Positions 2,882 through 64,000 of a stretch of DNA of 64,000 bases are shown here, piece by piece. Numbering within the stretch: position 1 is the first letter of the stretch; every line of letters starts with the position of its first letter. The stretch spans positions 956,501 through 1,020,500 of the forward strand of contig CP003096.1 in assembly GCA_000233775.1 (NCBI GenBank), given 5' to 3'. The notes beneath the pieces are model-generated. The model was not told the DNA's origin. It did not search any database and worked only from the letters and a program-made list of their open reading frames with translations. Source of the stretch: Thermovirga lienii DSM 17291. GTDB taxonomy: Bacteria; Synergistota; Synergistia; Synergistales; Thermovirgaceae. The translations under genes were made by a program, and so were the position numbers.

Positions 2882-4609
2882 GTGTACTTGCTTTTTGCTT
2901 TTGTGATTTTAATGCCCATAGGGATGTTTTTGGTCCAAAGACAAATTAAGAAATTGTTGGCCAAGGATCAGTACTATTACATTAAAGATCTACTGTTCGT
3001 GGGAGTGTGGGCTGTTGCTGCTTTGTGGCTCAAAGGTGAGGGGCTTTTGCCTGTGGTGGCCCTTGGAGTTTTGGGCGCGTCTTTGGGAATGTTCCAGAAG
3101 TACTTTCCCTCTAGATGGTGGGTTTTGTCTTACTTTTTGATAGGTTTTATGTTTGCCCTTTTAGGATTGAAGATAGAATTTATAAGGTTTGCGGGGAGGG
3201 AGTACGTTTATTTTCAGTGGTGGATGTCTTTGATCGTAACGTCTTTATGGGTAGGTTTGTACCCCCTTCTAATTCAGGAGCTGGATAGGATTCCGGGGTT
3301 GGCCGGATTTTTGCTTGCCGTGACTTGGTCTTTAATGCTTCTTGTAACGGGGTTCTCTGGCCAAAACCTAGGTGGTGCTTTTCAAATGTCTCTTCTGGCG
3401 GTCTTTATTTTGGGGGTTTTTTGGAGCAGACATGGTCATGCTTACAGGCGACTAGGGGAACCTTTGGCGGCCATGTGGGGGATTCTGATTGCCGGCACAT
3501 CCATTCTAGGGGTAAGTAAAGGGGTAACTTTCTCGACCATGATGATGTTGCCGCTGGGTTTGTTCGCTGTTCCAATAGTGGAAAAATCGTTGCATTTTAT
3601 AAGTCTGGCTTTAGATGTCAACAGAGAAAGCACTGTGTCTCTTTATAGGAAGTTTCTTGATAAGGGATATGAACATGCTACTGCAGTCAAGTTGGTGGGT
3701 TTGATAAGTGCGGCACTGGGAATGACGGTTGCTGCAATACAGATGCGGGGACAAAACGATGTTTTCATGTTATTGGGGCTTATAACCCCAGGTGCATTAT
3801 TGGGATATGGCTGGTTGACTTTGCGGAGAAAGCATAAGAGCCTGACAAGCGAAAGGCGGCCTAAACTGTGGGGAATACCTATAGATAACGTTTCCTCTGA
3901 TTACGCCGTTTCTAAGGTGGTCAATTGGATCAGGTTAAAACAAGGGGGCAAATACATAGTCACTTTAGATGCGCTGGCTACTTTGAGGGCGAGAAAAGAT
4001 AAAATCTATGCAAAGTGCGTAAAGGATGCAGATTTGGTCTTGCCGGACGGGAAAGGCCTCACCTTTGCCTTACGCTTTTTGGGCATGCCAGTGCAGGAGC
4101 GCATAGCAGGCATAGATTTTGTCGAGAAAATGTGCAGGATTGCGGCGTACGAAAAGGTTTCGGTCTATTTTTTGGGCGGTGCTGAAGGTATAGCTGCAAA
4201 GGCAGCGGAAAACATGGCAAAGAAATATCAGGGGCTTGAGATAGCAGGTGTCCACCACGGATATTTTGATGAGACCGAAGAACCCAAGATAATCGAACAT
4301 ATAAGAGAAAGCGGCGCAAGTTTCCTTTTGGTTGCTCTTGGAGTGCCGAAGCAAGAGATCTGGATGAATAGACACAGAGAGGAGTTAGAAGGAATCGTAG
4401 CCATCGGCGTGGGTGGAAGTTTCGATGTACTTTCGGGCAAACTTAGAAGGGCGCCTCTAATATGGCAACGCTTGGGATTGGAGTGGCTTTTCCGTTTAAT
4501 TCAAGAGCCATGGCGATGGCGGCGGGTGAAGGCTTTGCCTCTTTTTGGTATCCTTGTACTCCTTACAAAATTAGGCTTTGATAGAGGATGGTATGAAGAT
4601 GGAAATTAA
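2882..4609 (+). CDS. Fusion: WecA/MraY-like membrane domain (degenerate) + WecG/TagA/CpsF glycosyltransferase
   Basis: A 575-residue two-part protein. Residues 1 to about 320 are polytopic, with around ten hydrophobic segments. Their order and spacing recall the WecA/MraY phosphoglycosyltransferase fold: a basic LYRKFLDKGYEHATAVKL segment followed by a helix is like the family's HLHHRLL...SHRQAV stretch. The family's aspartates are not visible: the DDxxD site reads MFQKYFPS, the DGxDG site reads TGFSGQNLGG and the GDxGS site reads GEPLAAM. Residues about 328-560 are a WecG/TagA-type domain that normally transfers ManNAc or ManNAcA to an undecaprenyl-PP-GlcNAc acceptor, with LPDGKG, GVPKQEIW and GVGGSFDVLSGKLRRAP. 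The start is GTG 2882 because an in-frame stop lies at 2855. It overlaps the CBS gene by 17 bases. Confidence 0.85.
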   Translation: MYLLFAFVILMPIGMFLVQRQIKKLLAKDQYYYIKDLLFVGVWAVAALWLKGEGLLPVVALGVLGASLGMFQKYFPSRWWVLSYFLIGFMFALLGLKIEFIRFAGREYVYFQWWMSLIVTSLWVGLYPLLIQELDRIPGLAGFLLAVTWSLMLLVTGFSGQNLGGAFQMSLLAVFILGVFWSRHGHAYRRLGEPLAAMWGILIAGTSILGVSKGVTFSTMMMLPLGLFAVPIVEKSLHFISLALDVNRESTVSLYRKFLDKGYEHATAVKLVGLISAALGMTVAAIQMRGQNDVFMLLGLITPGALLGYGWLTLRRKHKSLTSERRPKLWGIPIDNVSSDYAVSKVVNWIRLKQGGKYIVTLDALATLRARKDKIYAKCVKDADLVLPDGKGLTFALRFLGMPVQERIAGIDFVEKMCRIAAYEKVSVYFLGGAEGIAAKAAENMAKKYQGLEIAGVHHGYFDETEEPKIIEHIRESGASFLLVALGVPKQEIWMNRHREELEGIVAIGVGGSFDVLSGKLRRAPLIWQRLGLEWLFRLIQEPWRWRRVKALPLFGILVLLTKLGFDRGWYEDGN

Positions 4610-5066
4610 CGCAGGGTCACTGATGAACAAGGATCTGACAGCTCTTTCCGAAGATGAGCTGATAATAGACGCTTTGCACGTGCTTTACAGCCAGAGACTT
4701 TCAGGAGTTCCGGTTGTAAGGGATGATTGGGTCCTGGTGGGCTTTCTTTCGGAGAAGGATATCCTTCAAGGAGCGGTGCCCACATATCTTGAGGTTTTGG
4801 CTCAGAGCACGTTCCTGGATGATTGCGAAGGCAATCTACTTCAGCGCCTTTGCGCGATGGGAAAACAGAAGGTCAAAGATTTGATGACCAAGGATCCGGT
4901 GTATGTTACCCCAGAGGCAAGCCTTATGACTGTAGCTGACTTGATGTTGCGCAAGAAAATAAAGAGGCTGCCTGTGGTGCAGGATGGGAAGTTAGTAGGA
5001 ATAATTGACAGGGGTGCTTTTTTTGAGTTCATAATGGAAGGCGATCTGTATGAGACTATGGAGTAA
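4593..5066 (+). CDS. Two-CBS-domain protein
   Basis: A small soluble protein made almost wholly of a CBS pair, the module that usually binds AMP/ATP or related nucleotides. Each half carries the repeat pattern, with GVPVVRDDWVLVGFLSEKDIL near residues 38-58 and RLPVVQDGKLVGIIDRGAFF near the end, linked by VKDLMTKDPVYVTPEASLMTVADLM. No catalytic domain is attached. I start at ATG 4593, just after AGAGG; TTG 4578 is further upstream and ATG 4599 is also possible. It overlaps the glycosyltransferase gene before it and the ATPase H-like gene after it, so it is translated with the V-ATPase cluster and might sense energy charge (inference). Confidence 0.85.
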   Translation: MKMEINAGSLMNKDLTALSEDELIIDALHVLYSQRLSGVPVVRDDWVLVGFLSEKDILQGAVPTYLEVLAQSTFLDDCEGNLLQRLCAMGKQKVKDLMTKDPVYVTPEASLMTVADLMLRKKIKRLPVVQDGKLVGIIDRGAFFEFIMEGDLYETME

Positions 5067-5421
5067 GCAGAAGAAAGAAGAAAAGGCCAAAGAACAGATT
5101 TGGGACGTGTCCTCTGAGCTTGTGGCTTTCAAGGAACAACTGGAGGTTCGTTACGAAGAAGAGAAGGCGAAGTTGGAAGTCCAAAGACGCGAGGCAGAGG
5201 AAAAGCTTAAGTTGATGAGCGATGAAACCATAAAGAAAAGTTTGAATGAATGGCAAAAGATGGAACAAAAGTTGGAGGATGAGCTCCAGCGGTACAAACT
5301 TGAGGTAGAAGAAAAGATAAGGAAGGAAATGAACAATATAGATAAAAGATCGCTAATGTATGAGATAGGAGAACTGGCTTTGAAAGAGCTTGTCGGAAAA
5401 GATGTGGAGGCTGTGACATGA
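5050..5421 (+). CDS. V/A-type ATPase subunit H-like (peripheral stalk coiled coil)
   Basis: A 123-residue, strongly charged, almost purely helical protein with heptad-like K/E/L/Q runs from residue 30 to 95. This matches the subunit H/G class that pairs with subunit E in the stator stalk of V/A-type ATPases. Coiled coils diverge fast, so the call rests largely on position: it directly precedes subunit I, as the H gene often does. The start at ATG 5050 has GGAAGG at 5036-5041. It lies inside the end of the CBS gene, and its stop overlaps the next start as ATGA. Confidence 0.72.
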   Translation: MRLWSKQKKEEKAKEQIWDVSSELVAFKEQLEVRYEEEKAKLEVQRREAEEKLKLMSDETIKKSLNEWQKMEQKLEDELQRYKLEVEEKIRKEMNNIDKRSLMYEIGELALKELVGKDVEAVT

Positions 5422-7334
5422 TTTTGGATATGCTTCGCATTGCCGTTTGGGGGTTATCAAGCGACCGATCCAGAATCGTCAAGGTCTTACACGACCTTGG
5501 CGTTGTTCATCTTGTACAGATGGACATGAAACATCAAAACAAGGAACCTTCATCGTTGAAAAGTCTTCACAAGATGAGAAATCTTTTGCTAGGCCTCATC
5601 GAGGCTTTGGAATGGAATAGTTGGGACAACCTGACCGATGAGTACTTGGAGGAGCAAAGGAAGTTTATTCCCGACTTCAGTGATGGAGTTTTAAAGGCTT
5701 TGCAGGAAAGCCTGGAGGAATTTAACGAACGTCTAAATAAACTTAAAAACCGTCAGATTGAACTGAAGACCCAGATGGAGAAATTGAGGAGGGTCCTCAA
5801 GATAGCTCATCACTTCGATTCTTTTTGGAGATCGGAGCACGATAAAGGAAACGTGGTGGGTTTTTGGTGGATATATGAGACTAACGTTTCACGGTTGTTG
5901 AGTAGATTGAAGGCGTTAGAGCCTCAAGGGGCTGGTTCTTCTTTTGAGACGGGTGGACTCAGATACCATATCGCAAAATTAAGCGAAAGTGAATCAATGA
6001 TAGCGTTGGCGGGGCCACCAGAGTGGTTTTCTGATGTAGAGGAGATGATGCAGGAAGAGAATGCTGTGAGGTGGACTCCACCAGAAGAATTTGTGGTGGG
6101 TGACTTCTTGGCTTCTGTCAAGCATATGGAAAAGCTTTATGAAGAAATTCCTAGGGAACTCAGTAAAATCGAAGCCGAACTGAAGGAAACCAGAGATGCT
6201 TGGGGGCCAAAGCTAGCGGCGATCTATATTTTCGTGGAGGAACGCCTTGAAGAAGCGATAGTTGAAAGAAGTGCCAAGACCGAAGGATACATGTTCTGCA
6301 TAGAGGGATGGATACCTGAGGTGGAGCTTAAGCGTACTATATCAGCGCTGAAAAACCACTTTGGCTCCAGAGTGTTGTTGATGTGGAGGAGACCTAAAGA
6401 TACAGAGTGGCATGAGGTTCCGACAGCGCTCCTTAACCCACCGATGTTCAGGTCTTTTGAGCTGTTTTTAAAACTAATGCCTCCACTTAGGTATACTGGT
6501 ATAGACCCTACCCTTTTGATCGGAATATTTTTCCCTTTCTTTTCCGGCTGCATGGTGGGCGATGTGGGATATGGGGTGCTAATAGCTTTCGCAGCGTACT
6601 TCATTAAGAAGAGAGCGAAGAGCAAGTTATGGGCTGACGTAAGCAATATAATGTTTTTCGTAGCTTTTTGGAGCGTTGCTTGGGGTGTGTTGTTTGGTGA
6701 ATATTTTGGGGATGTAGGAAAGAGGCTCTTCCACCTAGAACCCCTTTGGGTTGAGCGATCTCATGTGGTCATGCCAGTTATGATATTTGCAGTAAGTGTA
6801 GGGTTAGGGCATGTGGTATTTGGTCTTGTTCTTGGATTTATCCAAGGTTTGAAGGGCAAAAGAAAGCACGTTTGGTTGGAAAAACTGGGGAACTTGCTTA
6901 TATTGCTAGCGCTAGTGGGAGCCTTAGTGACCCTGAAAGGTTGGCTTCCCCGAGAGGTCTTTGTGTCTTGGGGGGTTGTTCTTTTCATAGGGGTTGTTTT
7001 GCTGATTGTAGGTGGAGGAATAGGAGCTTTGGCTGAGTCGATAGGTGCCATCGGAAATGTGTTAAGTTACGTGAGGATCGCCGCAATAGGTCTTTCTTCT
7101 GCCATATTGGCGGCTGTTGCTACGAAATTTCTGGACGTGTTGGGTATGTCCATCTTTGGGCTTCTTTTGGCTCTGGCTCTTCATCTATTGAATTTTGTGC
7201 TTGCTATAGCTGGTTCTAGCTTGCATTCAGCTAGGCTTCATTATGTAGAGTTTTTGGGGAAATTTTATGAAGGTGGAGGTAAACCATACAAACCATTTTC
7301 AAGGAGGAGATTAAAGAAATGGAAAAAGCGTTAA
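5418..7334 (+). CDS. ntpI: V/A-type ATPase subunit I (first cluster)
   Basis: Membrane stator subunit (the a-subunit equivalent) that forms the ion half-channels and anchors the peripheral stalks. It has 638 residues. The N-terminal half is soluble and helical (about 1-330); the C-terminal half has seven to eight membrane segments beginning near LLIGIFFPFFSGCMVGDVGYGVLIA. The ESIGAIGNVLSYVRIAAIGLSS segment holds the essential arginine of the proton/sodium channel, and HSARLHYVEFLGKFYEGGG is the family's C-terminal signature. GGAGG at 5406-5410 supports ATG 5418. It overlaps atpK by 16 bases. A second, different subunit I is at 61453-63468. Confidence 0.95.
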   Translation: MILDMLRIAVWGLSSDRSRIVKVLHDLGVVHLVQMDMKHQNKEPSSLKSLHKMRNLLLGLIEALEWNSWDNLTDEYLEEQRKFIPDFSDGVLKALQESLEEFNERLNKLKNRQIELKTQMEKLRRVLKIAHHFDSFWRSEHDKGNVVGFWWIYETNVSRLLSRLKALEPQGAGSSFETGGLRYHIAKLSESESMIALAGPPEWFSDVEEMMQEENAVRWTPPEEFVVGDFLASVKHMEKLYEEIPRELSKIEAELKETRDAWGPKLAAIYIFVEERLEEAIVERSAKTEGYMFCIEGWIPEVELKRTISALKNHFGSRVLLMWRRPKDTEWHEVPTALLNPPMFRSFELFLKLMPPLRYTGIDPTLLIGIFFPFFSGCMVGDVGYGVLIAFAAYFIKKRAKSKLWADVSNIMFFVAFWSVAWGVLFGEYFGDVGKRLFHLEPLWVERSHVVMPVMIFAVSVGLGHVVFGLVLGFIQGLKGKRKHVWLEKLGNLLILLALVGALVTLKGWLPREVFVSWGVVLFIGVVLLIVGGGIGALAESIGAIGNVLSYVRIAAIGLSSAILAAVATKFLDVLGMSIFGLLLALALHLLNFVLAIAGSSLHSARLHYVEFLGKFYEGGGKPYKPFSRRRLKKWKKR

Positions 7335-7537
7335 TTGCCCTTGCAGCTGCTTTAGCGGTTGGATTGCCAGCTTTGGCTACCGCATATGCCCAAGCAAAGA
7401 TAGGTAGCTCAGGAGCTGGAACCATAGCTGAAAAGCCAGAAACAGGTGGAATAATCATAATACTTGAAGCTATACCCGAAACCATGGTAATCCTTGGTTT
7501 CGTTGTGGCTATTATGTTGATACTACAGTTTGCCTAA
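7319..7537 (+). CDS. ntpK: V/A-type ATPase rotor subunit K/c, single hairpin (first cluster)
   Basis: A 72-residue proteolipid with two membrane helices (about 4-27 and 44-71) joined by a short polar loop. This is the 8-kDa form, unlike the 16-kDa four-helix form in the second cluster. The ion-binding carboxylate is probably Glu54 in the AIPETMVILGF segment. Thr55 after it and Gln25 in helix 1 are residues often used in Na+ rings, but ion choice cannot be settled by eye. AAGGAGGAG at 7301-7309 precedes ATG 7319. The gene overlaps the end of subunit I. Confidence 0.95.
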   Translation: MEKALIALAAALAVGLPALATAYAQAKIGSSGAGTIAEKPETGGIIIILEAIPETMVILGFVVAIMLILQFA

Positions 7538-7549
7538 AGGATGAGTTAG

Positions 7550-8188
7550 ATGACCTTAGATTCTCTAGATGAAGGCCGCTCTTTGGAACTCTTCAAGAAG
7601 GCTTTACAAGAGGAATATGAGAAAAGGCTAGAAGCCTTGAGGAAAGAGCATGAAGAGAGACTTATGGAGTTGACTGCCCAATATAGGCAGAGGACTGAGA
7701 TTGAGGTGAGCCGAATAAGGCAGGCCTTGCAAGCTAGATATGAAGAAACTCTACGAACCAGAAAAGAAAGTGTAAAAGGAGAGTTGATCTCGTTAATATA
7801 CAAAGAATTAAGCGATCTATACAGTGAGACCTTGTCTTACATCGAAAAAGAGCTTTTCAGTTTTACGTCCAATCCTGAGGGAGGATACAAGGGGGTGCTG
7901 AAGGGGCTCGTGGAAGAGGCCCTAGCAGTGCTGAATGAACCTGCGGTAGTTGTTGTTCGTCCTGAGGATGAGAATCTTTTGTTGGAGCATCCCCTTGTTG
8001 AAAAAGTTGAAGTGGAAGAAGATGACAAGCTATTAAATTGCGGAGGGTGTATAGTCCTAGATGCTGCTACCAAGCGGCGGATAGTCGATAACACTATCCT
8101 TTCCAGATTTGAAAAACTAAAAGGAATGATAAGGGAAAAACTGTCGATTAGGTACAAAGAGGTTTTCGATGTTGTTGAAAAAATATGA
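7550..8188 (+). CDS. ntpE: V/A-type ATPase subunit E
   Basis: Peripheral-stalk subunit that pairs with subunit H/G and holds the A3B3 head. It has 212 residues. The N-terminal 75 residues are a charged helix (LQEEYEKRLEALRKEHEERL). The C-terminal half is a globular alpha/beta domain with the LLNCGGCIVLDAATKRRIVDNTILSRFEKL stretch (read from the sequence in two parts), typical of the E-subunit GG(C/I)-V-DN pattern. It starts at ATG 7550, twelve bases after atpK, with AAAGGATGAG just before. It overlaps the C-subunit gene by 20 bases. Confidence 0.92.
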   Translation: MTLDSLDEGRSLELFKKALQEEYEKRLEALRKEHEERLMELTAQYRQRTEIEVSRIRQALQARYEETLRTRKESVKGELISLIYKELSDLYSETLSYIEKELFSFTSNPEGGYKGVLKGLVEEALAVLNEPAVVVVRPEDENLLLEHPLVEKVEVEEDDKLLNCGGCIVLDAATKRRIVDNTILSRFEKLKGMIREKLSIRYKEVFDVVEKI

Positions 8189-9221
8189 AGAAAATTATGG
8201 CTATTTCAATGCAAGATTAAGAGCCAGAATGGAGTTTTTTTTAAAAAAAGAGGATTACGAAAGGCTTGCATCGGGAAGCTTAGGCGAATTTGAGACCTTC
8301 ATAATGGAAGGACAATTTGGGAAGAATTATAGAGAAGAGCTTCTCAAGTCTGGTTATTCCACTGGAAGAAGAATAGATGAGGCGCTAGCCAGAGGAGTTT
8401 CTGATAATTTTCAAAAAATAAAGACTTTTGCGGTTGGGGAGCCGCGATTGCTCCTGGAATTGCTTTTCATGCGGTCAGACCTTCACAATGGCAGGCTTTT
8501 GCTTAGGGCTTTGAAAACTAAGAGTAACGCAACTCAGCCGCCTCCTAAATGGTATGGGTTTGGTGCGTTGCCTGCTTCTTTGTTTGAGGATTTATATGCT
8601 TCCAGATCCAACAAAGAAATAATAGGAAAACTTTTTTTGGATGGCCACCGAATAGCTACTTCTCTTGCAAAGGCTGTAATAGAGCTGGAGCAGACGGGCA
8701 ATTTGCCCCAAGCGGAAAGAAGGTACCTTTCTTTGTTGCTCGGCTATGCTTTGGACAGTATTGAAGATATAAGAGCGGAAAACAAAAAAATAATACTGGA
8801 ATATATAAAACGGACCGTGGATATTTGGAATGTTAATGTCTTCTCCCGAAAGATAAGGAACGAAGGGGAGGAAGCTGCTTACACGAGATACTTCATGGAC
8901 ACCGAGGGACTGATAAATCGCAATCGACTACTTAAGGCAAACAAATGGAGTGAACTTTTGTCAGGGACTCCTTGGTCTGGAGTTTTAAAGAAGGTAAAGG
9001 ACGATGTAAGTGATCAATTTATCCTTCGAAGCTTGATGAGAGAGTTTTTGTTTTGGCAAGTTCAACAGCGAAGGGAAAACCTTATGGGCATAGGTATTGC
9101 TGTTGCTTATGTAGCCTTGCAGCTGGCTGAATGGCAAAACCTTAACACCATATCCATCGGTTTACAGCTGGCCATGCCCGCTGATCAGATTTTATCGCGC
9201 CTGATAATTTTGGAAAGGTAG
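8169..9221 (+). CDS. ntpC: V/A-type ATPase subunit C (d-like)
   Basis: Funnel-shaped subunit that couples the central stalk (D/F) to the membrane rotor ring. It has 350 residues, all helical, with the usual family start YxYxNARLRARM and scattered motifs such as LLELLFMRSDLHNGRLLLRA and QRRENLMGIGIAVAYVALQLAEW toward the C-terminus. It starts at ATG 8169, inside the end of subunit E, with GAGG a few bases upstream. Its stop is seven bases before the F-subunit start. Confidence 0.92.
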   Translation: MLLKKYEENYGYFNARLRARMEFFLKKEDYERLASGSLGEFETFIMEGQFGKNYREELLKSGYSTGRRIDEALARGVSDNFQKIKTFAVGEPRLLLELLFMRSDLHNGRLLLRALKTKSNATQPPPKWYGFGALPASLFEDLYASRSNKEIIGKLFLDGHRIATSLAKAVIELEQTGNLPQAERRYLSLLLGYALDSIEDIRAENKKIILEYIKRTVDIWNVNVFSRKIRNEGEEAAYTRYFMDTEGLINRNRLLKANKWSELLSGTPWSGVLKKVKDDVSDQFILRSLMREFLFWQVQQRRENLMGIGIAVAYVALQLAEWQNLNTISIGLQLAMPADQILSRLIILER

Positions 9222-9227
9222 AGAGCG

Positions 9228-9515
9228 ATGAATGAGGTGAAGGTGGAGAGGGCTTTGGTTGTGGGCAGGGATTTGTTCGTGGATTTGTGGTCTCTTTTAG
9301 GTTTCGAACCCATCGAATGCCCCCATCCTAAAGCATTTGGATCCATATGGAATACTCTGATAGAAGAGGATGTTTCTTTGGTTTTGTTGGAAGAAAGATG
9401 GTTTTCTCAAGTTCCTGAGATCTTCAAAAGAAGGATAGAGAAGATGACCAGGCCGTCGTGGGTCGTGTTGCCATCCTTTAGTTTGCCTGAAGAGGGAGGA
9501 TCCTTTGATGGATAG
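9228..9515 (+). CDS. ntpG: V/A-type ATPase subunit F
   Basis: A 95-residue subunit that sits with D in the central stalk. It is recognised by size, position between C and A, and a Rossmann-like pattern: a hydrophobic strand with a conserved acidic/glycine turn (ALVVGRDLFVDLWSLLGFEPIE) and a central strand VSLVLLEERWF. The C-terminus is short compared with many F subunits, which usually run 100-110 residues. It starts at ATG 9228 and overlaps the A-subunit start by eight bases. The sequence is diverged enough that the call leans on gene order. Confidence 0.82.
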   Translation: MNEVKVERALVVGRDLFVDLWSLLGFEPIECPHPKAFGSIWNTLIEEDVSLVLLEERWFSQVPEIFKRRIEKMTRPSWVVLPSFSLPEEGGSFDG

Positions 9516-11271
9516 ATGTGGGATTATAAGGGGAATCTCTGGCCCTGTAATAAAAGCCGAATCTAAGGTCCCAACTAGACTTTATGAAGTAGTAAGGGTC
9601 GGTAAGGAAGGACTTTTAGGAGAAGTTATACGGATTAGGGGGTCATTCGTAGATGTGCAGGTTTACGAAGACACCACAGGCCTAAGGGTAGGGGAGCCGG
9701 TAGTTTTCAGCGGAGAACTTCTGTCTGTGGAGCTTGGTCCTGGTGTCTTAGGGACTGTGTTGGATGGTATAGGTCGCCCGCTGAGTAGAATTGGGGCAGA
9801 GGACGGTATTTTCCTTAAGAGAGGTTTCGCTGCTCCAACCGTTCCAAGGGACCTTAAATGGAAATTTGTTCCTTTAATGCAAGAAGGCCAGGAGTTCTTT
9901 CCAGGTGATGTTTATGGGGTAATGGTTGACGTGGGAGGTTTCCAACATAAACTCATGATACCTCCTATGGCGAAGCCCGGGAAGGTTGCTTGGATAGCTG
10001 CTGAAGGGGAATATAAAGCAGAGGATCTTCTTTTTGAATCTACCCAAGGACTATCTTTGTGTTGTGTCCAGAAATGGAACGTTAGAGTCTCCCGTCCCTT
10101 TAAGGAACGCCTTCCGTTTAACGAACCTCTAATAACAGGGCAGAGGATTCTGGATACCCTGTTCCCTGTGGCGTTGGGTGGGGCATCTGTGGTGCCAGGG
10201 GGCTTTGGAACTGGAAAGACAGTTACGCAGCAGTCGCTGGCCAAGTGGTGCAACGCTGACATCATAATTTACATAGGGTGTGGGGAGCGAGGAAACGAGA
10301 TGACAGAGGTATTGGAGGAGTTTCCTCATCTCAAAGATCCCAGAACGGGAAAAGCCCTTATGGACAGGATGATTCTAATCGCTAATACTTCCAACATGCC
10401 TGTGGCTGCCAGAGAGGCTAGCATATATTTGGGCATGACGCTGGCTGAATACTTCAGAGATATGGGGAATAACGTAGCCATAATGGCTGATTCCACTTCT
10501 AGGTGGGCTGAGGCCCTAAGAGAAATAAGTGGAAGACTTGAAGAGATGCCAGGGGAAGAAGGGTATCCTGCTTATCTTTCATCCAGACTTTCTCAATACT
10601 ATGAGAGGGCAGGCAGAGTAAAGGTGCTGTGTTCTGACGAGCGTGAAGGCTCTATAACTGTCATAAACGCTGTCTCTCCGCCGGGGGGGGATTTCTCTGA
10701 ACCAGTGACTCAAGCCAGTTTGAGGCTTTCTGGTGCTTTCTGGGCCCTTGATAAATCTCTGGCTCAGAAGAGGCATTTCCCTTCCATAAATTGGCACTTA
10801 AGCTACACCTTGTATGAACATTCACTATCCGATTACTTCAATAGGAAGCTAGGAGCGCAATGGAGTGAATTGGTCCTTTGGTTGAGGGAGTTATTGGAGG
10901 ATGAGAAGAAACTGGAGGAATTAGTGCAGATAGTGGGAAGAGACGCCCTGGAGGAACTGGATAGATGGAAGCTTCACCTGGCATGGCTGGTTAAAAGTTT
11001 CTATCTTCAGCAAAATGCCTTCGATGATAAGGATGCTTTTTGTCCTCTTGAAAAGCAAAAGCTTCTGCTGGAGTTTTTCAAAGAGATGGATTGTAAGGTA
11101 GTAGATAAAGTGAAAGAGGGGGTGCTCTTCTCTCAGATACAAAGGATTCCCATACAAATGTGGCTGGAAGAAATGCGAAAGCTACAGGTTGAGGAAATGC
11201 AAACCAAAAAACATGAATATATTACCGCACTCGATAGAGAATTGGACTCACTAGAGGTGATAAGATCATGA
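9508..11271 (+). CDS. ntpA: V/A-type ATPase catalytic subunit A
   Basis: Catalytic nucleotide-binding subunit of the A3B3 head. It has 587 residues. The N-terminal beta barrel (1-70) is followed by the A-specific bulge (about 110-200) and the nucleotide-binding domain. The Walker A loop GGFGTGKT is at 231-238. Other marks are the GCGERGNEMTEVLEEFP block, MADSTSRWAEALREISGRLEEMPGEEGYP, and SPPGGDFSEPVTQASLRL. I start at ATG 9508 because GGGAGGA ends eight bases upstream; TTG 9505 is the alternative. The stop overlaps the B start as ATGA. Confidence 0.98.
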   Translation: MDRCGIIRGISGPVIKAESKVPTRLYEVVRVGKEGLLGEVIRIRGSFVDVQVYEDTTGLRVGEPVVFSGELLSVELGPGVLGTVLDGIGRPLSRIGAEDGIFLKRGFAAPTVPRDLKWKFVPLMQEGQEFFPGDVYGVMVDVGGFQHKLMIPPMAKPGKVAWIAAEGEYKAEDLLFESTQGLSLCCVQKWNVRVSRPFKERLPFNEPLITGQRILDTLFPVALGGASVVPGGFGTGKTVTQQSLAKWCNADIIIYIGCGERGNEMTEVLEEFPHLKDPRTGKALMDRMILIANTSNMPVAAREASIYLGMTLAEYFRDMGNNVAIMADSTSRWAEALREISGRLEEMPGEEGYPAYLSSRLSQYYERAGRVKVLCSDEREGSITVINAVSPPGGDFSEPVTQASLRLSGAFWALDKSLAQKRHFPSINWHLSYTLYEHSLSDYFNRKLGAQWSELVLWLRELLEDEKKLEELVQIVGRDALEELDRWKLHLAWLVKSFYLQQNAFDDKDAFCPLEKQKLLLEFFKEMDCKVVDKVKEGVLFSQIQRIPIQMWLEEMRKLQVEEMQTKKHEYITALDRELDSLEVIRS

Positions 11272-12662
11272 GCCTTTACAGGGAAGGGAGCAGGGCCGTT
11301 GAGGGTATAACTGGTCCCCTTTTATTTGTCTCAGGAATAAAGAATGGTGGTTATGGGGAGATAGTATCCATAGAGACGGGGACGTCTACTTTGATGGGAC
11401 AGGTATTGCAGGTGGAAGATGAAATATGCGTAATCCAAGTTTTTGAAGACACCATGGGACTTGACCCTGCGTCAACCACCGTCTGGCTACAACGGGATGT
11501 TATGCGAATGCCTTTGAGCCCTGCACTCAAAGGAAGAGTGCTAAATGGTAGGGGGGAACCCATAGACCATAAGGGGCCTATCGTTTACGAAGAGTATAGG
11601 CTACCTATTCAGGGTTTACCGTTAAATCCAGTGATGCGTTCCAGTCCTAACGCTTACATTGAGACAGGCATCTCCTCGATAGATGTGATGAATACCTTGG
11701 TTAGGGGGCAAAAGCTTCCTATTTTTTCAGGGGCTGGATTGCCTGCCAATGAGCTTGCTACACAGATTGTCAAGCAGGCCAGAGTTCCAGGAGCGAGAGG
11801 ACGATTCCTTCCCATATTTGCAGCTGTTGGGATAACCGCCAGGGAAGCCCAGTATTTTATAAACTTTTTCAACGATACGGGAGCCATACATAATGGCATT
11901 TTTTTCATAAATCTTGCCAGTGATTCGGCTGTGGAAAGGATACTTACTCCTAGACTGGCCTTGACAGCCGCTGAATATTTTGCTTTTTCCCTTGGATATG
12001 ATGTCTTAGTGGTTATTACGGACATGCTTTATTATTGTGAGGCCTTGCGAGAAATAAGTGCAGTAAGAGATGAAGTTCCAGGTAGGAGAGGTTATCCGGG
12101 ATATATGTACTCTGACCTTGCTAGCATATTTGAGAGGGCTGGGTGTGTGAAAGGCAGAAAGGGTAGTGTGACTCAGCTTCCTATAATAACCATGCCAGGA
12201 GATGACATGACCCATCCAGTTGTGGATTTGTCTGGGTATATAACAGAAGGGCAGATAGTATTGGATAGAAGCCTGAACGACAGAAATATATACCCTCCTA
12301 TAAACGTTTTGCCCAGTTTGAGCAGGCTTATGAATAAAGGAATAGGAAAAGGAAGGACGGTAAAGGAGCATAGGAGCCTCGCGGATCAGTTATATGCTTC
12401 TTACGCCAAAGCGAAAGAGGTAGAGAGGTTAAGGCTTATAGTGGGAGAAGATGGCCTCACTCCAGAGGAGAAGCTCTTTTTGCGCTTCGGTGAAATTTTT
12501 GAAAAAGAGTTTTTGAATCAAGGAAATATATATAGAGACTTAAAGCAATCGATGGAGATAGCATGGGATTGCTTGTCTGTCCTCCCGAGGGAGGCTCTGT
12601 TCAAGTTGTCGGAGGATGTAATCACAGAAAAGCTGGCCGGAAGGGAAAGAAAAAACCAATGA
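11268..12662 (+). CDS. ntpB: V/A-type ATPase subunit B
   Basis: Non-catalytic nucleotide-binding-fold subunit that alternates with A in the hexameric head. It has 464 residues, normal length. It shows GRGEPIDHKGPI, the LPIFSGAGLPANELATQIVKQ region where a true P-loop would sit, and RDEVPGRRGYPGYMYSDLASIFERAG. The lack of GxGKT is normal for B. It starts at ATG 11268 with a four-base overlap to A and ends with a four-base overlap to D. Confidence 0.97.
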   Translation: MSLYREGSRAVEGITGPLLFVSGIKNGGYGEIVSIETGTSTLMGQVLQVEDEICVIQVFEDTMGLDPASTTVWLQRDVMRMPLSPALKGRVLNGRGEPIDHKGPIVYEEYRLPIQGLPLNPVMRSSPNAYIETGISSIDVMNTLVRGQKLPIFSGAGLPANELATQIVKQARVPGARGRFLPIFAAVGITAREAQYFINFFNDTGAIHNGIFFINLASDSAVERILTPRLALTAAEYFAFSLGYDVLVVITDMLYYCEALREISAVRDEVPGRRGYPGYMYSDLASIFERAGCVKGRKGSVTQLPIITMPGDDMTHPVVDLSGYITEGQIVLDRSLNDRNIYPPINVLPSLSRLMNKGIGKGRTVKEHRSLADQLYASYAKAKEVERLRLIVGEDGLTPEEKLFLRFGEIFEKEFLNQGNIYRDLKQSMEIAWDCLSVLPREALFKLSEDVITEKLAGRERKNQ

Positions 12663-13303
12663 GCTCTCAGTTGATACCTACTAGGGATCAAGTAATACTG
12701 TTACGAAGGCAAATAAATATAGTTAGTTTTGGCAGAACTCTATTAGAGAAAAAGAAGGATGCTTTGCTAAGGGCCATAGAGGAAGATAGGAAGGTGTTTT
12801 CAGAGAAGGAAAAGCGTTTAAAGGGTCTAATCCGTAAGTTAAATTACTTGTATGCGTTGGTGCGTATGTACGAAGGGAATACAACTGTAAAACTGTTATC
12901 GATGAATAAACCTAGCATAGAGCTAAAATCTACCATGCACACTCTAATGGGGTGTAAGTATTTACAATACAAATGTAAAAAGGCAGAGGGTTTTACTTTG
13001 GAGGAAGTAGCGCTAGACCCTGCCTTGACTTCCTTTTACGTAGATGATCTTCTGCGGACTTTGACGGATACTGAATCTGTCCTGTGGGATTTCATAAACA
13101 CCAAGACCAAGTTGAATGCCCTTGAGGCGGAGCTGAAAAAAACTATGATGAAGGTTAACACACTAGATTACGTGATTTTACCCAAGCTTAAGACCGATTT
13201 GAATTATATAATGGACATACTTAACGAACGAGAAAGGCAAGAAAGATATATCGCAAAGAAAGTCTCACGCAGAAAAAGTTCACAAAGGGACGTTAAAGTG
13301 TAG
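12659..13303 (+). CDS. ntpD: V/A-type ATPase subunit D
   Basis: Central rotor shaft, the counterpart of F-type gamma. It has 214 residues and two long helices. The N-terminal IPTRDQVILLRRQINIVSFGRTLLEKKKDALL and the C-terminal LDYVILPKLKTDLNYIMDILNERERQE (each longer than quoted motifs elsewhere, recognisable as the D signature) pack as a coiled coil. I start at ATG 12659, which overlaps the atpB stop. An upstream in-frame ATG at 12563 would add a basic tail unlike the family. It is the last gene of this ATPase set. Confidence 0.93.
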   Translation: MSSQLIPTRDQVILLRRQINIVSFGRTLLEKKKDALLRAIEEDRKVFSEKEKRLKGLIRKLNYLYALVRMYEGNTTVKLLSMNKPSIELKSTMHTLMGCKYLQYKCKKAEGFTLEEVALDPALTSFYVDDLLRTLTDTESVLWDFINTKTKLNALEAELKKTMMKVNTLDYVILPKLKTDLNYIMDILNERERQERYIAKKVSRRKSSQRDVKV

Positions 13304-26754: not shown

Positions 26755-26830
26755 GGGCCTGTAGCTCAGGGGATAGAGCAACGGCCTCCTAAGCCGTAGG
26801 TCGCCCGTTCGAATCGGGCCAGGCCCGCCA
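26755..26830 (+). tRNA. tRNA-Arg (CCU)
   Basis: A 76-base cloverleaf with CCA encoded. The acceptor GGGCCTG pairs with CAGGCCC, the anticodon stem ACGGC/GCCGT encloses CTCCTAA with anticodon CCU (codon AGG), and the T-arm GCCCG/CGGGC encloses TTCGAAT. No convincing terminator follows; only a four-pair CCTC/GAGG stem before TTTTTT near 26865. Confidence 0.96.
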
Positions 26831-39363: not shown

Positions 39364-39450
39364 GGGAGAGTGGTGGAACTGGTATACACGAGGGACTTAA
39401 AATCCCTTGGCTGAAAAGCCTTGAGGGTTCGAATCCCTTCTCTCCCACCA
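39364..39450 (+). tRNA. tRNA-Leu (UAA)
   Basis: 87 bases, class II with a variable arm (TGGCTGAAAAGCC region) and CCA encoded. The acceptor GGGAGAG pairs with CTCTCCC; the stem AGGGA/TCCCT holds the loop CTTAAAA with anticodon UAA. Confidence 0.96.
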
Positions 39451-39468
39451 ATAAAGCCTGGTGTGCTA

Positions 39469-39477
39469 TGATATAAT
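39469..39477 (+). promoter_or_regulatory. Extended -10 promoter for tRNA-fMet
   Basis: TGATATAAT: a TG extension directly before TATAAT (39472-39477). No good -35 is seen. The predicted start lies about 20 bases upstream of the initiator tRNA. Confidence 0.5.
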
Positions 39478-39504
39478 AGTTAACGATAGAGAAGCAGCTG
39501 ACAT

Positions 39505-39583
<79 letters not shown>

Positions 39584-39585
39584 AA

Positions 39586-39662
39586 GGCGGTGTAGCTCAG
39601 ATGGCGAGAGCATGCGGTTCATACCCGCAGGGTCAGTGGTTCGAATCCACTCACCGCCACCA
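39586..39662 (+). tRNA. tRNA-Met (CAU), elongator
   Basis: 77 bases, CCA encoded. The acceptor GGCGGTG pairs with CACCGCC; the stem TGCGG/CCGCA holds the loop TTCATAC, anticodon CAU. It resembles elongator Met more than the lysidine-modified tRNA-Ile (CAU), but the latter cannot be excluded by eye. It begins four bases after tRNA-fMet. Confidence 0.9.
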
Positions 39663-49381: not shown

Positions 49382-49456
49382 GGGTGGTTAGTTCAGAGGA
49401 AGAACGCTTCCTTGACGCGGAAGAGGTCGCAGGTTCGAGTCCTGCACCACCCACCA
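49382..49456 (+). tRNA. tRNA-Val (GAC)
   Basis: 75 bases, CCA encoded. The acceptor GGGTGGT pairs with ACCACCC; the stem CTTCC/GGAAG holds the loop TTGACGC with anticodon GAC. The T-arm is GCAGG/CCTGC. Confidence 0.95.
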
Positions 49457-60863: not shown

Positions 60864-60939
60864 GCGGACATAGCTCAGTTGGTAGAGCATCGGCTTCCCA
60901 AGCCGAGGGTCGCGGGTTCGAGTCCCGTTGTCCGCTCCA
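60864..60939 (+). tRNA. tRNA-Gly (CCC)
   Basis: 76 bases, CCA encoded. The acceptor GCGGACA pairs with TGTCCGC; the stem TCGGC/GCCGA holds the loop TTCCCAA with anticodon CCC. The T-arm is GCGGG/CCCGT with one wobble pair. Confidence 0.95.
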
Positions 60940-61084: not shown

Positions 61085-61139
61085 GAATAAGACTTTGTTC
61101 TTTGCATAACGTATAATGTTTTGAAAGGGGGTGCTGGTG

Positions 61140-61466
61140 GTGGCTAAAAATTTAACGGAGGAGATAAGAGCGACGGAAGAGCAAGCTCAAAAAATCGTTT
61201 CTGAGGCAAAGAGTCAGGCTTCGCAGATAATCTCCGAAGCCCGCTATGAGGCGGAACAGGCCGTTAAATCGTTCAGGCAGCAGATGCATAGATCTTTTAG
61301 GGATGAATTGGTCCGCGTAGAGAAAGACGCTGAAAAGGAGATCGGAGTAATTTTGCAAGAGGGACAAAAAAAGGCAGAGAGCATAATAGATAACCATAAA
61401 GGTAAGGTTGACGAAGTGGCTGCCTGGATAGCGCAAGAGGTGATGACCCGGTATGGCAGTAACTAA
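61140..61466 (+). CDS. V/A-type ATPase subunit H-like (second cluster)
   Basis: A 108-residue, fully helical, charged protein (EQAQKIVSEAKSQASQIISEAR; repeating A/E/K heptads) that fits the peripheral-stalk H/G role and precedes subunit I, as in the first cluster. It shares little direct sequence with the first H-like protein. The start is one of GTG 61131, 61137 or 61140; AAAGGGGG at 61124-61131 best fits 61140 or 61137. The end overlaps subunit I by 14 bases. Confidence 0.8.
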   Translation: MAKNLTEEIRATEEQAQKIVSEAKSQASQIISEARYEAEQAVKSFRQQMHRSFRDELVRVEKDAEKEIGVILQEGQKKAESIIDNHKGKVDEVAAWIAQEVMTRYGSN

Positions 61467-63468
61467 ATTCAAAAAAGCATCTTTGGTTGTGCTAGGAGAG
61501 AAAGAAGAGGCGGTAGTGTCCGTTTTGCAGGATTTGGCGTGTTGTGAAATAATGCCAGAGCCCACGGACACGAGGACCCATGATTGGGCTAAATGTATAA
61601 AATCAGCGGATGAAGCCCTTGCTGATATACGATCTGCCCTGCGTTTTTTGGAACCGTACTACTCAGAGGTGTCTGGTAAGTTGGAGCGCCTCTTGGGCGA
61701 AAAACCTACAGTCACCGTTGAGGAACTGGAGAACCTTTCGAATAGTATTGATCTTGCAAGTTTGTCGTCCTCGGTTAAAAAAATAGAGCGAAGAATGTTG
61801 GATATAAGGACGTTGCTTTCCAAGTTGGACTCCAACGAAGAGATATTGATCAAGTTAAGACAGTTTCCGTATTCACTGGCTATTATATCCAGTGGTACTG
61901 TACGCATATCCAGTATCGTAGGAACCTTGCCTGTAGCCTATCTTGAGAGGTTCCAAGGGTTGGTTGCAGAATTGCTGGCATCTGATGGAGAACTGTTTGT
62001 TGCTCCATTTACTCCAAAGGAAACGGATGTCACCGTAGTATTGATGTATGACAAAAAGAAGGCTGACGAAGTTGCTGAGATATGCGAAAAGGTTCCGTTC
62101 ACCAAGTTGGACTTTCCACCAGAGCTTGAGGGTACTCCCGAAGAGGAGTTGTCCAAAATTGAAAGAAATCGGACAGAGCTAGCAAAGGAATCAGAGAACC
62201 TTGAAAGGAATGCTGCAAAACTGGCTTCTGAGTGGGTTCCAACGCTTAGAAACTTGTTGGATTACTATTCTGTTATTAGGACTCGCTATGAAACCTTGGT
62301 TAATGCTTCTAGGACGGAGAAGGTCAGTGTTATTAAGTTCTGGGTTCCAGAACCTGCGGTAGGAAAGTTAAAAGAAAAGCTCTCTAAATTTGGAGAGGAG
62401 CTTGAGCTCATAATAGAGGATCCATCAGATGATGATGAACCACCCACTCTGTTGGAAAATCCTCGTTGGGCTTTGCCATTTGAGCCTTTGACAAGGCTGT
62501 ACGGTGCACCTAAGTATGGGGAGATTGATCCTACGGTTCCCATGGCTCCCTTCATGTTCCTCTTTTTTGGGATGTGTTTGGGCGATGGTGGCTATGGAGT
62601 TCTCATTGCTTTTGCAATAACATATTTGCTCTCCAAATACAAAATTGTTGGAGATACAAAGAATTTCTTGCACTTGCTGCTTCTAGGTGCTCTGTCTACG
62701 ATAGCTGTTGGTGCCCTCACAGGTAGTTGGATGGGCGATATGATTGATGCTTTTCCTTTCCTAGCCTTGCTGAAACCCCTTAAGGACAGATTGGTTGTGT
62801 TAAACCCCATGTCGGACCCTATCACTTTCTTGGGGATATCCCTTGCTTTGGGGGTTGTACAGATACTCTTTGGCCTTTCTATCGCGTTTTGGGATAGCCT
62901 GAGGAAAAAAGACTACATGGCTGCTTTTGGTGACAACGGAGGCTGGATTTCCCTTTTGATAGGACTTCTTTTGCTTGGAGGGGTAAAGAGCGGTTTTTTA
63001 GGAGGAGCAGCCGGGTTGCTAGGGAAAATACTTTCCATCTTAGGTGCGGCTGTGTTGGTCGCAACGCAAGGTAGGGAGAAAACAGGACTGTTTAGAAGGT
63101 TGCTGTCGGGAGTGTTGAGTTTATATAACATAACGTCGTACTTGGGGGATATTTTGAGTTATAGCAGGCTTTTGGCTTTGGGTTTGGCTACTTCTGCGAT
63201 TGCGATGATAGTTAATACTCTGACCAACCTTGTGTTGTCCATACCATTTGTTGGTTGGATACTGAGCATAGTAATATTTGTGGGCGGCCATCTTTTCAGC
63301 GTGGTAGTCAACACTCTCGGTGCTTTCATCCACTCTTTGCGTCTGCAGTATGTGGAGTTTTTCAGCAAGTTCTATAGCGGGGGAGGAAGAATCTTTCAGC
63401 CTCTGGAATACAGGACCCGCTACGTAAAGATAGTAGGGAGTAAGCCCTTGGGACAGCAAAGTAAGTAA
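61453..63468 (+). CDS. ntpI: V/A-type ATPase subunit I (second cluster)
   Basis: A second, different subunit I of 671 residues. The soluble N-terminal half (1 to about 345) is followed by a membrane half starting with VPMAPFMFLFFGMCLGDGGYGVLIAF. It shows LSLYNITSYLGDILSYSRLLALGLATSAIA, in which SYSRLLALGL holds the channel arginine, and the C-terminal HSLRLQYVEFFSKFYSGGG. It starts at ATG 61453 after AGAGGTGATG. It is closer in style to Enterococcus NtpI than the first copy, consistent with the 16-kDa K subunit that follows. Confidence 0.95.
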   Translation: MAVTKFKKASLVVLGEKEEAVVSVLQDLACCEIMPEPTDTRTHDWAKCIKSADEALADIRSALRFLEPYYSEVSGKLERLLGEKPTVTVEELENLSNSIDLASLSSSVKKIERRMLDIRTLLSKLDSNEEILIKLRQFPYSLAIISSGTVRISSIVGTLPVAYLERFQGLVAELLASDGELFVAPFTPKETDVTVVLMYDKKKADEVAEICEKVPFTKLDFPPELEGTPEEELSKIERNRTELAKESENLERNAAKLASEWVPTLRNLLDYYSVIRTRYETLVNASRTEKVSVIKFWVPEPAVGKLKEKLSKFGEELELIIEDPSDDDEPPTLLENPRWALPFEPLTRLYGAPKYGEIDPTVPMAPFMFLFFGMCLGDGGYGVLIAFAITYLLSKYKIVGDTKNFLHLLLLGALSTIAVGALTGSWMGDMIDAFPFLALLKPLKDRLVVLNPMSDPITFLGISLALGVVQILFGLSIAFWDSLRKKDYMAAFGDNGGWISLLIGLLLLGGVKSGFLGGAAGLLGKILSILGAAVLVATQGREKTGLFRRLLSGVLSLYNITSYLGDILSYSRLLALGLATSAIAMIVNTLTNLVLSIPFVGWILSIVIFVGGHLFSVVVNTLGAFIHSLRLQYVEFFSKFYSGGGRIFQPLEYRTRYVKIVGSKPLGQQSK

Positions 63469-63530: not shown

Positions 63531-64000
<470 letters not shown>

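Follow-up and report, generated by a model that had tools for sequence, protein, structure and literature searches.

The window, that is, the whole 64-kb stretch of DNA that was analysed, corresponds to positions 956501-1020500 of contig C1 of the Thermovirga genome (G000), which has 1,999,646 bases in two contigs, the main one of 1,967,774. It contains one complete V/A-ATPase gene cluster, V1 (5050-13303), and the first genes of another, V2 (from 61131). The V1 genes are arranged on the plus strand in the order H-I-K-E-C-F-A-B-D. The first gene (5050-5421) encodes an H-like peripheral stalk protein of 123 aa, which has no Pfam match above the cut-off; it was assigned by position alone and occurs repeatedly at V1 loci. 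Subunit I, the stator (5418-7334, 638 aa, PF01496), has its ion-path arginines in the segments SYVRI and ARLHYVEF. Both arginines are invariant in every subunit I of the three cluster types described below (I1, I2 and I3) that was aligned. Subunit K (7319-7537, 72 aa, PF00137 E 1.1e-15) is a single hairpin. It is followed by subunit E (7550-8188, 212 aa, PF01991 E 4e-8), subunit C, the base of the central stalk on the ring (8169-9221, 350 aa, PF01992 E 4e-42), and the central stalk subunit F (9228-9515, 95 aa), which is in the right position and whose PF01990 match is below the cut-off (E 1.3e-3). The catalytic subunit A (9505-11271, 588 aa, NF003220, 781 bits), subunit B (11268-12662, 464 aa, NF003235, 642 bits) and subunit D (12659-13303, 214 aa from its likely start, PF01813 E 1.3e-33) complete the cluster. 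A start of subunit D at 12563 was set aside in favour of 12659, which overlaps the B gene in an ATGA. Thus, the full subunit set (A, B, D, F, C, E, H/G, I and K) is present. The catalytic sites are also intact: the A subunit (A1) possesses GGFGTGKT and GERGNE, and the B subunit (B1) possesses the arginine-finger segment SLSRLM. With all of its subunits and intact ATP sites, the Thermovirga V1 should couple ATP to ion flow.

Two further plus-strand genes lie upstream. A CBS-pair protein of 162 aa (4578-5066, PF00571 E 5e-29) overlaps the H gene by 17 nt, and a WecG/TagA-family glycosyltransferase with a membrane N-terminus (2882-4609, PF03808 E 4.5e-68) is a fixed syntenic neighbour that does not belong to the ATPase. 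Elsewhere in the window, six tRNA genes (Arg, Leu, two Met, Val and Gly) are found at 26755-26830, 39364-39662, 49382-49456 and 60864-60939.

Three V/A-ATPase clusters in one genome

The V2 cluster begins on the plus strand with subunit H/G (61131-61466, GTG start, PF03179 E 1.3e-6), subunit I (61453-63468, 671 aa, PF01496 E 2.9e-30) and subunit K (63537-64000, 158 aa), a double hairpin in which both hairpins match PF00137 and whose stop codon lies just past the window. The first-pass annotation proposed that the subunit I and H-like proteins of V1 and V2 differ, and this was supported. A second cluster without subunits A and B would have spoken against its proposal of two V-ATPases. When the contig was read further, V2 proved to be complete to about C1:1026387, in the order H-I-K-E-C-F-A-B-D, with full-length A (602 aa) and B (474 aa). 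The proposal that there are two V-ATPases has to be revised, because searches of the genome with PF00137 and PF00006 revealed three complete clusters. The third, V3, lies outside the window, about 540 kb beyond it, on the minus strand (C1:~1558700-1567340; L021:6713-15340; PF00137 locus at genome position 1562855). Its gene order is D-H-C-I-K-F-E-A-B, and its K subunit (K3, about 137 aa) has one hairpin, preceded by an additional membrane stretch at the N-terminus.

In the genome, PF00006 matched three A/B pairs and two further proteins. The match at genome position 87119 is a 452-aa frame that is FliI-like by length, and that at 620799 is weak and Rho-like as judged by length and score. No F-type alpha/beta pair was found in the Thermovirga genome by the PF00006 search. 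Among other ion-translocating systems, the genome has three complex-I/Mrp-like antiporter subunits; for Rnf, just one RnfC-like match, below the cut-off, was obtained. In another member of the Synergistota, Cloacibacillus porcorum MFA1, two A/V-type ATPase operons and no F-type enzyme have been reported (PMC10838667). The available part of that account does not separate the operons by rotor type, and it describes no third enzyme, CBS gene or reduced forms (PMC10838667). In a limited literature search, we found no paper on three or reduced V-ATPases in Synergistota.

Distribution of the three types and the CBS-pair gene

We typed the V-ATPase loci of Synergistota by their best match to the 27 proteins of the three Thermovirga clusters. 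Almost all of the 83 loci read fall into the V1, V2 or V3 type with matching gene orders. The exceptions are three loci from outgroups within the phylum (L123-L125) and seven F-type-like loci (L099, L126-L128, L133, L137 and L146). Some of the latter encode small F-type-like c subunits, in part beside alpha/beta-like genes (L099 in G017; L126, L127 and L128 in G108). The three copies in G108 read GQG...IETTAIYG, which is a Na+-type pattern. In the tree of A subunits, A1, A2 and the main A3 sequences form separate, well-supported clades, and the outgroup A3 sequences of L123 and L124 are weakly supported neighbours of the main A3 sequences. A1 evolves fast and A2 slowly. Paired K hairpins of the V2 type are present in 59 of 60 genomes (30 of 30 in one table and 29 of 30 in another), whereas 61 of 188 genomes, from 27 of 63 genera, have a V1-type K. 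From this distribution and these evolutionary rates, V2 and not V1 is the core enzyme of the phylum. V1, as judged from its sequences, is a fast-evolving V/A-ATPase that has so far been seen only in Synergistota: a scan of named genomes found no V1-type A subunit (60% identity or more) outside the phylum, with short exact patterns that can miss relatives.

The CBS-pair gene accompanies K1, the V1-type K, without exception. Among 188 Synergistota genomes, a close ortholog (110 bits or more) is present in 61 of the 61 that have a V1-type K and in none of the 127 that lack it; one genome (G167) was counted on a fragment with 60% identity at a contig end. In the 127 genomes without K1, the best match is to a second paralog, with a weaker score of about 102 bits or less. 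This paralog is also found in K1-bearing genomes such as G000 and G187 (up to 105 bits). At 12 V1-less loci examined, the CBS gene of V1 type was absent from all 12. In ten of these, the glycosyltransferase gene is followed directly by RlmH/YbaB/RecR, and the other two diverge soon after it. The tree of I1 follows the families. Thus, the co-occurrence with K1, the locus and the I1 tree indicate that V1 and the CBS-pair gene are one module, with a fixed place and mostly vertical inheritance. A functional partnership between the glycosyltransferase and V1 was rejected, because the glycosyltransferase is present in 177 of the 188 genomes, with or without V1.

Rotor ion sites, predicted ions and direction

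The claim that V1 and V2 have different rotor rings was borne out. The K subunit of V2 (K2) aligns with NtpK of the Enterococcus hirae Na+ V-ATPase (2BL2) with E 6e-35, and its residues L55, T58, Q59, Q110, E139 and Y62 correspond to the E. hirae Na+ set (PMC2359735). The motif (equivalents of L61, T64, Q65, Q110 and E139) is present in 24 of 24 K2 proteins. Thus, the alignment confirms the suggestion that the double-hairpin K carries the E. hirae Na+ site, and V2 is predicted to be Na+-coupled. V2 shares all of the listed Na+ ligands and the 16-kDa double hairpin with the E. hirae enzyme; it differs in that it is the core enzyme in its phylum and that no F-type enzyme was found beside it. In K3, the equivalent positions are Val, Glu and Gly, and the glutamate is the sole listed ligand in 25 of 25 proteins. 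A glutamate without Gln and Ser/Thr is the H+-type arrangement, and V3 is therefore predicted to be an H+-coupled, single-hairpin V/A-ATPase.

The K subunit of V1 (K1) differs from both. Its ligand residues Q25, E54 and T55 are invariant in 60 of 60 K1 proteins, as is a second carboxylate, E50, which is one helical turn from the ion-binding E54 and has no counterpart in K2 or K3. Consequently, the single hairpin has two membrane carboxylates, not one as had been proposed. The ion sites of K1 and K2 are not alike. Na+-coupled enzymes have been predicted from a ligand set that includes a polar residue and a Tyr (PMC2359735). In K1, Gln, Glu and Thr are present, but all 60 proteins have Met or Ile at position 67 and Leu at the position of Tyr70 (Ilyobacter tartaricus numbering), so that the Na+ ligand set is incomplete. 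The nearest solved chain is the K subunit of the Thermus V/A-ATPase (E 1.4e-12), which has the same Q..PET arrangement, and coupling to proton flow has been described for the Thermus enzyme (PMC7367684). For these two reasons, we consider that V1 is probably H+-coupled. Q25, E54 and T55 might nevertheless be enough for Na+ binding, since a Q..ET pair is given as a Na+ motif in F-type c subunits (PMC7911925), and V1 would then be a second Na+ V-ATPase. This is doubtful, given that the polar residue and the stabilizing Tyr are replaced in all 60 K1 proteins (PMC2359735) and that Thermus K shares Q..PET in a proton-coupled enzyme (PMC7367684). Beyond the rotor, the Thermus thermophilus V/A-ATPase (PDB 8yy1, 6qum and 5gar) resembles V1 in its single-hairpin K and its I-K-E-C-F-A-B-D set. 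V1 has in addition E50, where Thermus has Leu, an associated CBS-pair gene, and relatives without ATP sites or a central stalk. A division of labour between Na+ (V2) and H+ (V1) is thus a prediction from the rotor sequences.

Whether the rings also separate the direction of the enzymes is another matter. It had been argued that halving the carboxylates per rotor lowers the ions moved per ATP. The halving per hairpin is right, but ring size was ignored, and the argument is weak, since a ring of double hairpins can contain an equal number of sites. The E. hirae ring has 10 protomers, from which 10/3 = 3.3 ions per ATP are expected and 3.2 ± 0.4 were measured (PMC12018189). The single-hairpin ring of Thermus is c12 (PMC7367684), which gives 12/3 = 4 ions per ATP. 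The ratio is about 1.2, and these figures are those of the known rings, not of the Thermovirga rings. Moreover, the E. hirae enzyme is reversible and synthesizes ATP (PMC12018189). V2, whose K carries one site per protomer, is likewise reversible in principle, and so could be a Na+ pump or a Na+-driven synthase. Because the known ratios are close and the E. hirae enzyme is reversible, the proposed division, in which rotor stoichiometry makes V1 an ATP synthase and V2 a Na+ pump, does not follow. In its favour, the Na+ site of a known Na+ pump is complete in K2, and K1 is similar to the ring of the Thermus V/A-ATPase, which acts as a synthase in the cell. However, the core enzyme is V2, not V1, and since no F-type enzyme was found, V2 or V3 would be the more natural candidate for the indispensable synthase. 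We therefore regard this division as improbable. Any split of roles would really be a three-way one that includes V3.

Reduced V1 forms and the probable conserved core

In 14 genomes, V1 is reduced: the ATP sites are lost in five, and the C-F-D central stalk is lost in nine. The five ATP-dead forms (G017, G045, G046, G053 and G069) keep I1, K1, C1 and the CBS gene. At four of their loci (L163, L164, L192 and L100), A and B have neither the P-loop, nor the catalytic glutamate (GER), nor the arginine finger. At the remaining locus (L165, G069), B is equally dead and A did not read as one frame. The family link of the dead A and B was seen with PF00006 (E 7.6e-7 for L100) and with hhalign (B against B, E 4.7e-15). 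An AlphaFold model of the ATP-dead A from four sequences had a pLDDT of 46.5, which is insufficient for a fold search, and the homology rests on Pfam, hhalign and position.

In the nine stalk-less genomes (G039, G075, G090, G114, G124, G138, G140, G144 and G164; loci L171-L176 and L194-L196), C, F and D were absent at all nine loci, where F and D were checked at the locus only. A C1-type gene was found nowhere in the eight of these genomes that were searched (all but G114), nor in G037. The P-loop of A is kept in all stalk-less sequences read; the catalytic Glu is replaced by Gly in five (L171, L172, L175, L176 and L195) and kept in four (L173, L174, L194 and L196). G037 is a further, more broken case: its contig has K, E, and divergent A and B and lacks I, C, F and D. 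V2 or V3 could supply the missing C, F and D to a reduced V1. In the I1 tree, the ATP-dead forms are monophyletic. The clade of stalk-less forms includes a complete member (G062, L142), and stalk loss therefore looks recurrent.

K1 Q25, E50, E54 and T55 and both I1 arginines are invariant in all reduced forms aligned. Furthermore, the remaining genes of reduced V1 are under purifying selection, as measured by dN/dS (simple pairwise estimates without a tree model). For pairs within one genus, the values of dead A and dead B were 0.14-0.18 and 0.12-0.17, respectively. Those of stalk-less A and B were 0.22-0.37 and 0.20-0.34, as compared with 0.08-0.10 and 0.04-0.05 in complete forms where measurable. 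K1 gave 0 to 0.10 in pairs of reduced forms, with the exception of the stalk-less pair L173/L174 (0.26). I1 gave 0.10-0.21 for pairs within genera, and the dead pair that spans two genera gave 0.27. In this pair (L100/L192), A, B, C and E were much less constrained (0.55-0.80).

These losses raise the possibility that V1 is a dispensable extra pump that is being lost across the phylum and that the reduced forms are transient remnants. V1 is absent from 127 of 188 genomes, clean empty V1 sites occur in two genomes from the same genus as dead forms, losses recur in the I1 tree, and the constraint on A and B is relaxed in the stalk-less forms (0.20-0.37). On the other hand, the reading frames of the ATP-dead A and B remain open, with purifying selection between species (0.12-0.18), no reduced form shows a change in the ion-path residues of K1 or I1, and in the 188 genomes the CBS gene never occurs without K1, nor the reverse. 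We consider that decay by itself is a rather unlikely explanation. Because the ring, the stator and the CBS protein are kept under selection while the ATP sites or the stalk are lost, the conserved core is probably ion passage. These comparisons suggest that the conserved role of V1 is not simply ATP coupling, and that in the reduced forms the selected activity is probably ion conduction.

There is a precedent for a valve-like role of Vo without V1 catalysis. Above a threshold of about 120 mV, H+ passes through the isolated Thermus Vo (a, d, c12, E and G), which subunit d and the soluble part of a keep closed (PMC7367684). Its composition, namely I, the K ring, C and E/G without a working V1, resembles the ATP-dead set. 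The Thermus Vo is an assembly intermediate or experimental product (PMC7367684), whereas the reduced state in Synergistota is genetically encoded. Because the dead forms keep C, the equivalent of d, and the stalk-less forms do not, the two may differ in leakiness.

On balance, we favour the explanation that the three ATPases of Thermovirga are non-redundant and that the core of the V1 module is regulated ion passage through Vo. V1 has a Thermus-like single-hairpin ring and is inherited with a CBS-pair protein of the adenylate-sensor type, and ATP coupling would be the part that can be shed. CBS pairs are in general known as adenylate sensors, and the one beside V1 may regulate it. A stronger form of this idea is that V1 is a rotary-ATPase-derived conduit made of Vo and a CBS sensor, and that in some Synergistota an adenylate- or voltage-gated, ATP-independent rotary channel is under selection; we consider this form unlikely.

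With three rotary ATPases, each with its own rotor type, the 2-Mb genome provides a natural test of what determines ion choice and direction. In the reduced V1 forms, the ion motor has been naturally separated from the ATP motor. If the reduced forms still work, a Vo ring can have its own job in bacteria, and the perfect pairing with the CBS gene offers a way to study the control of such a ring.
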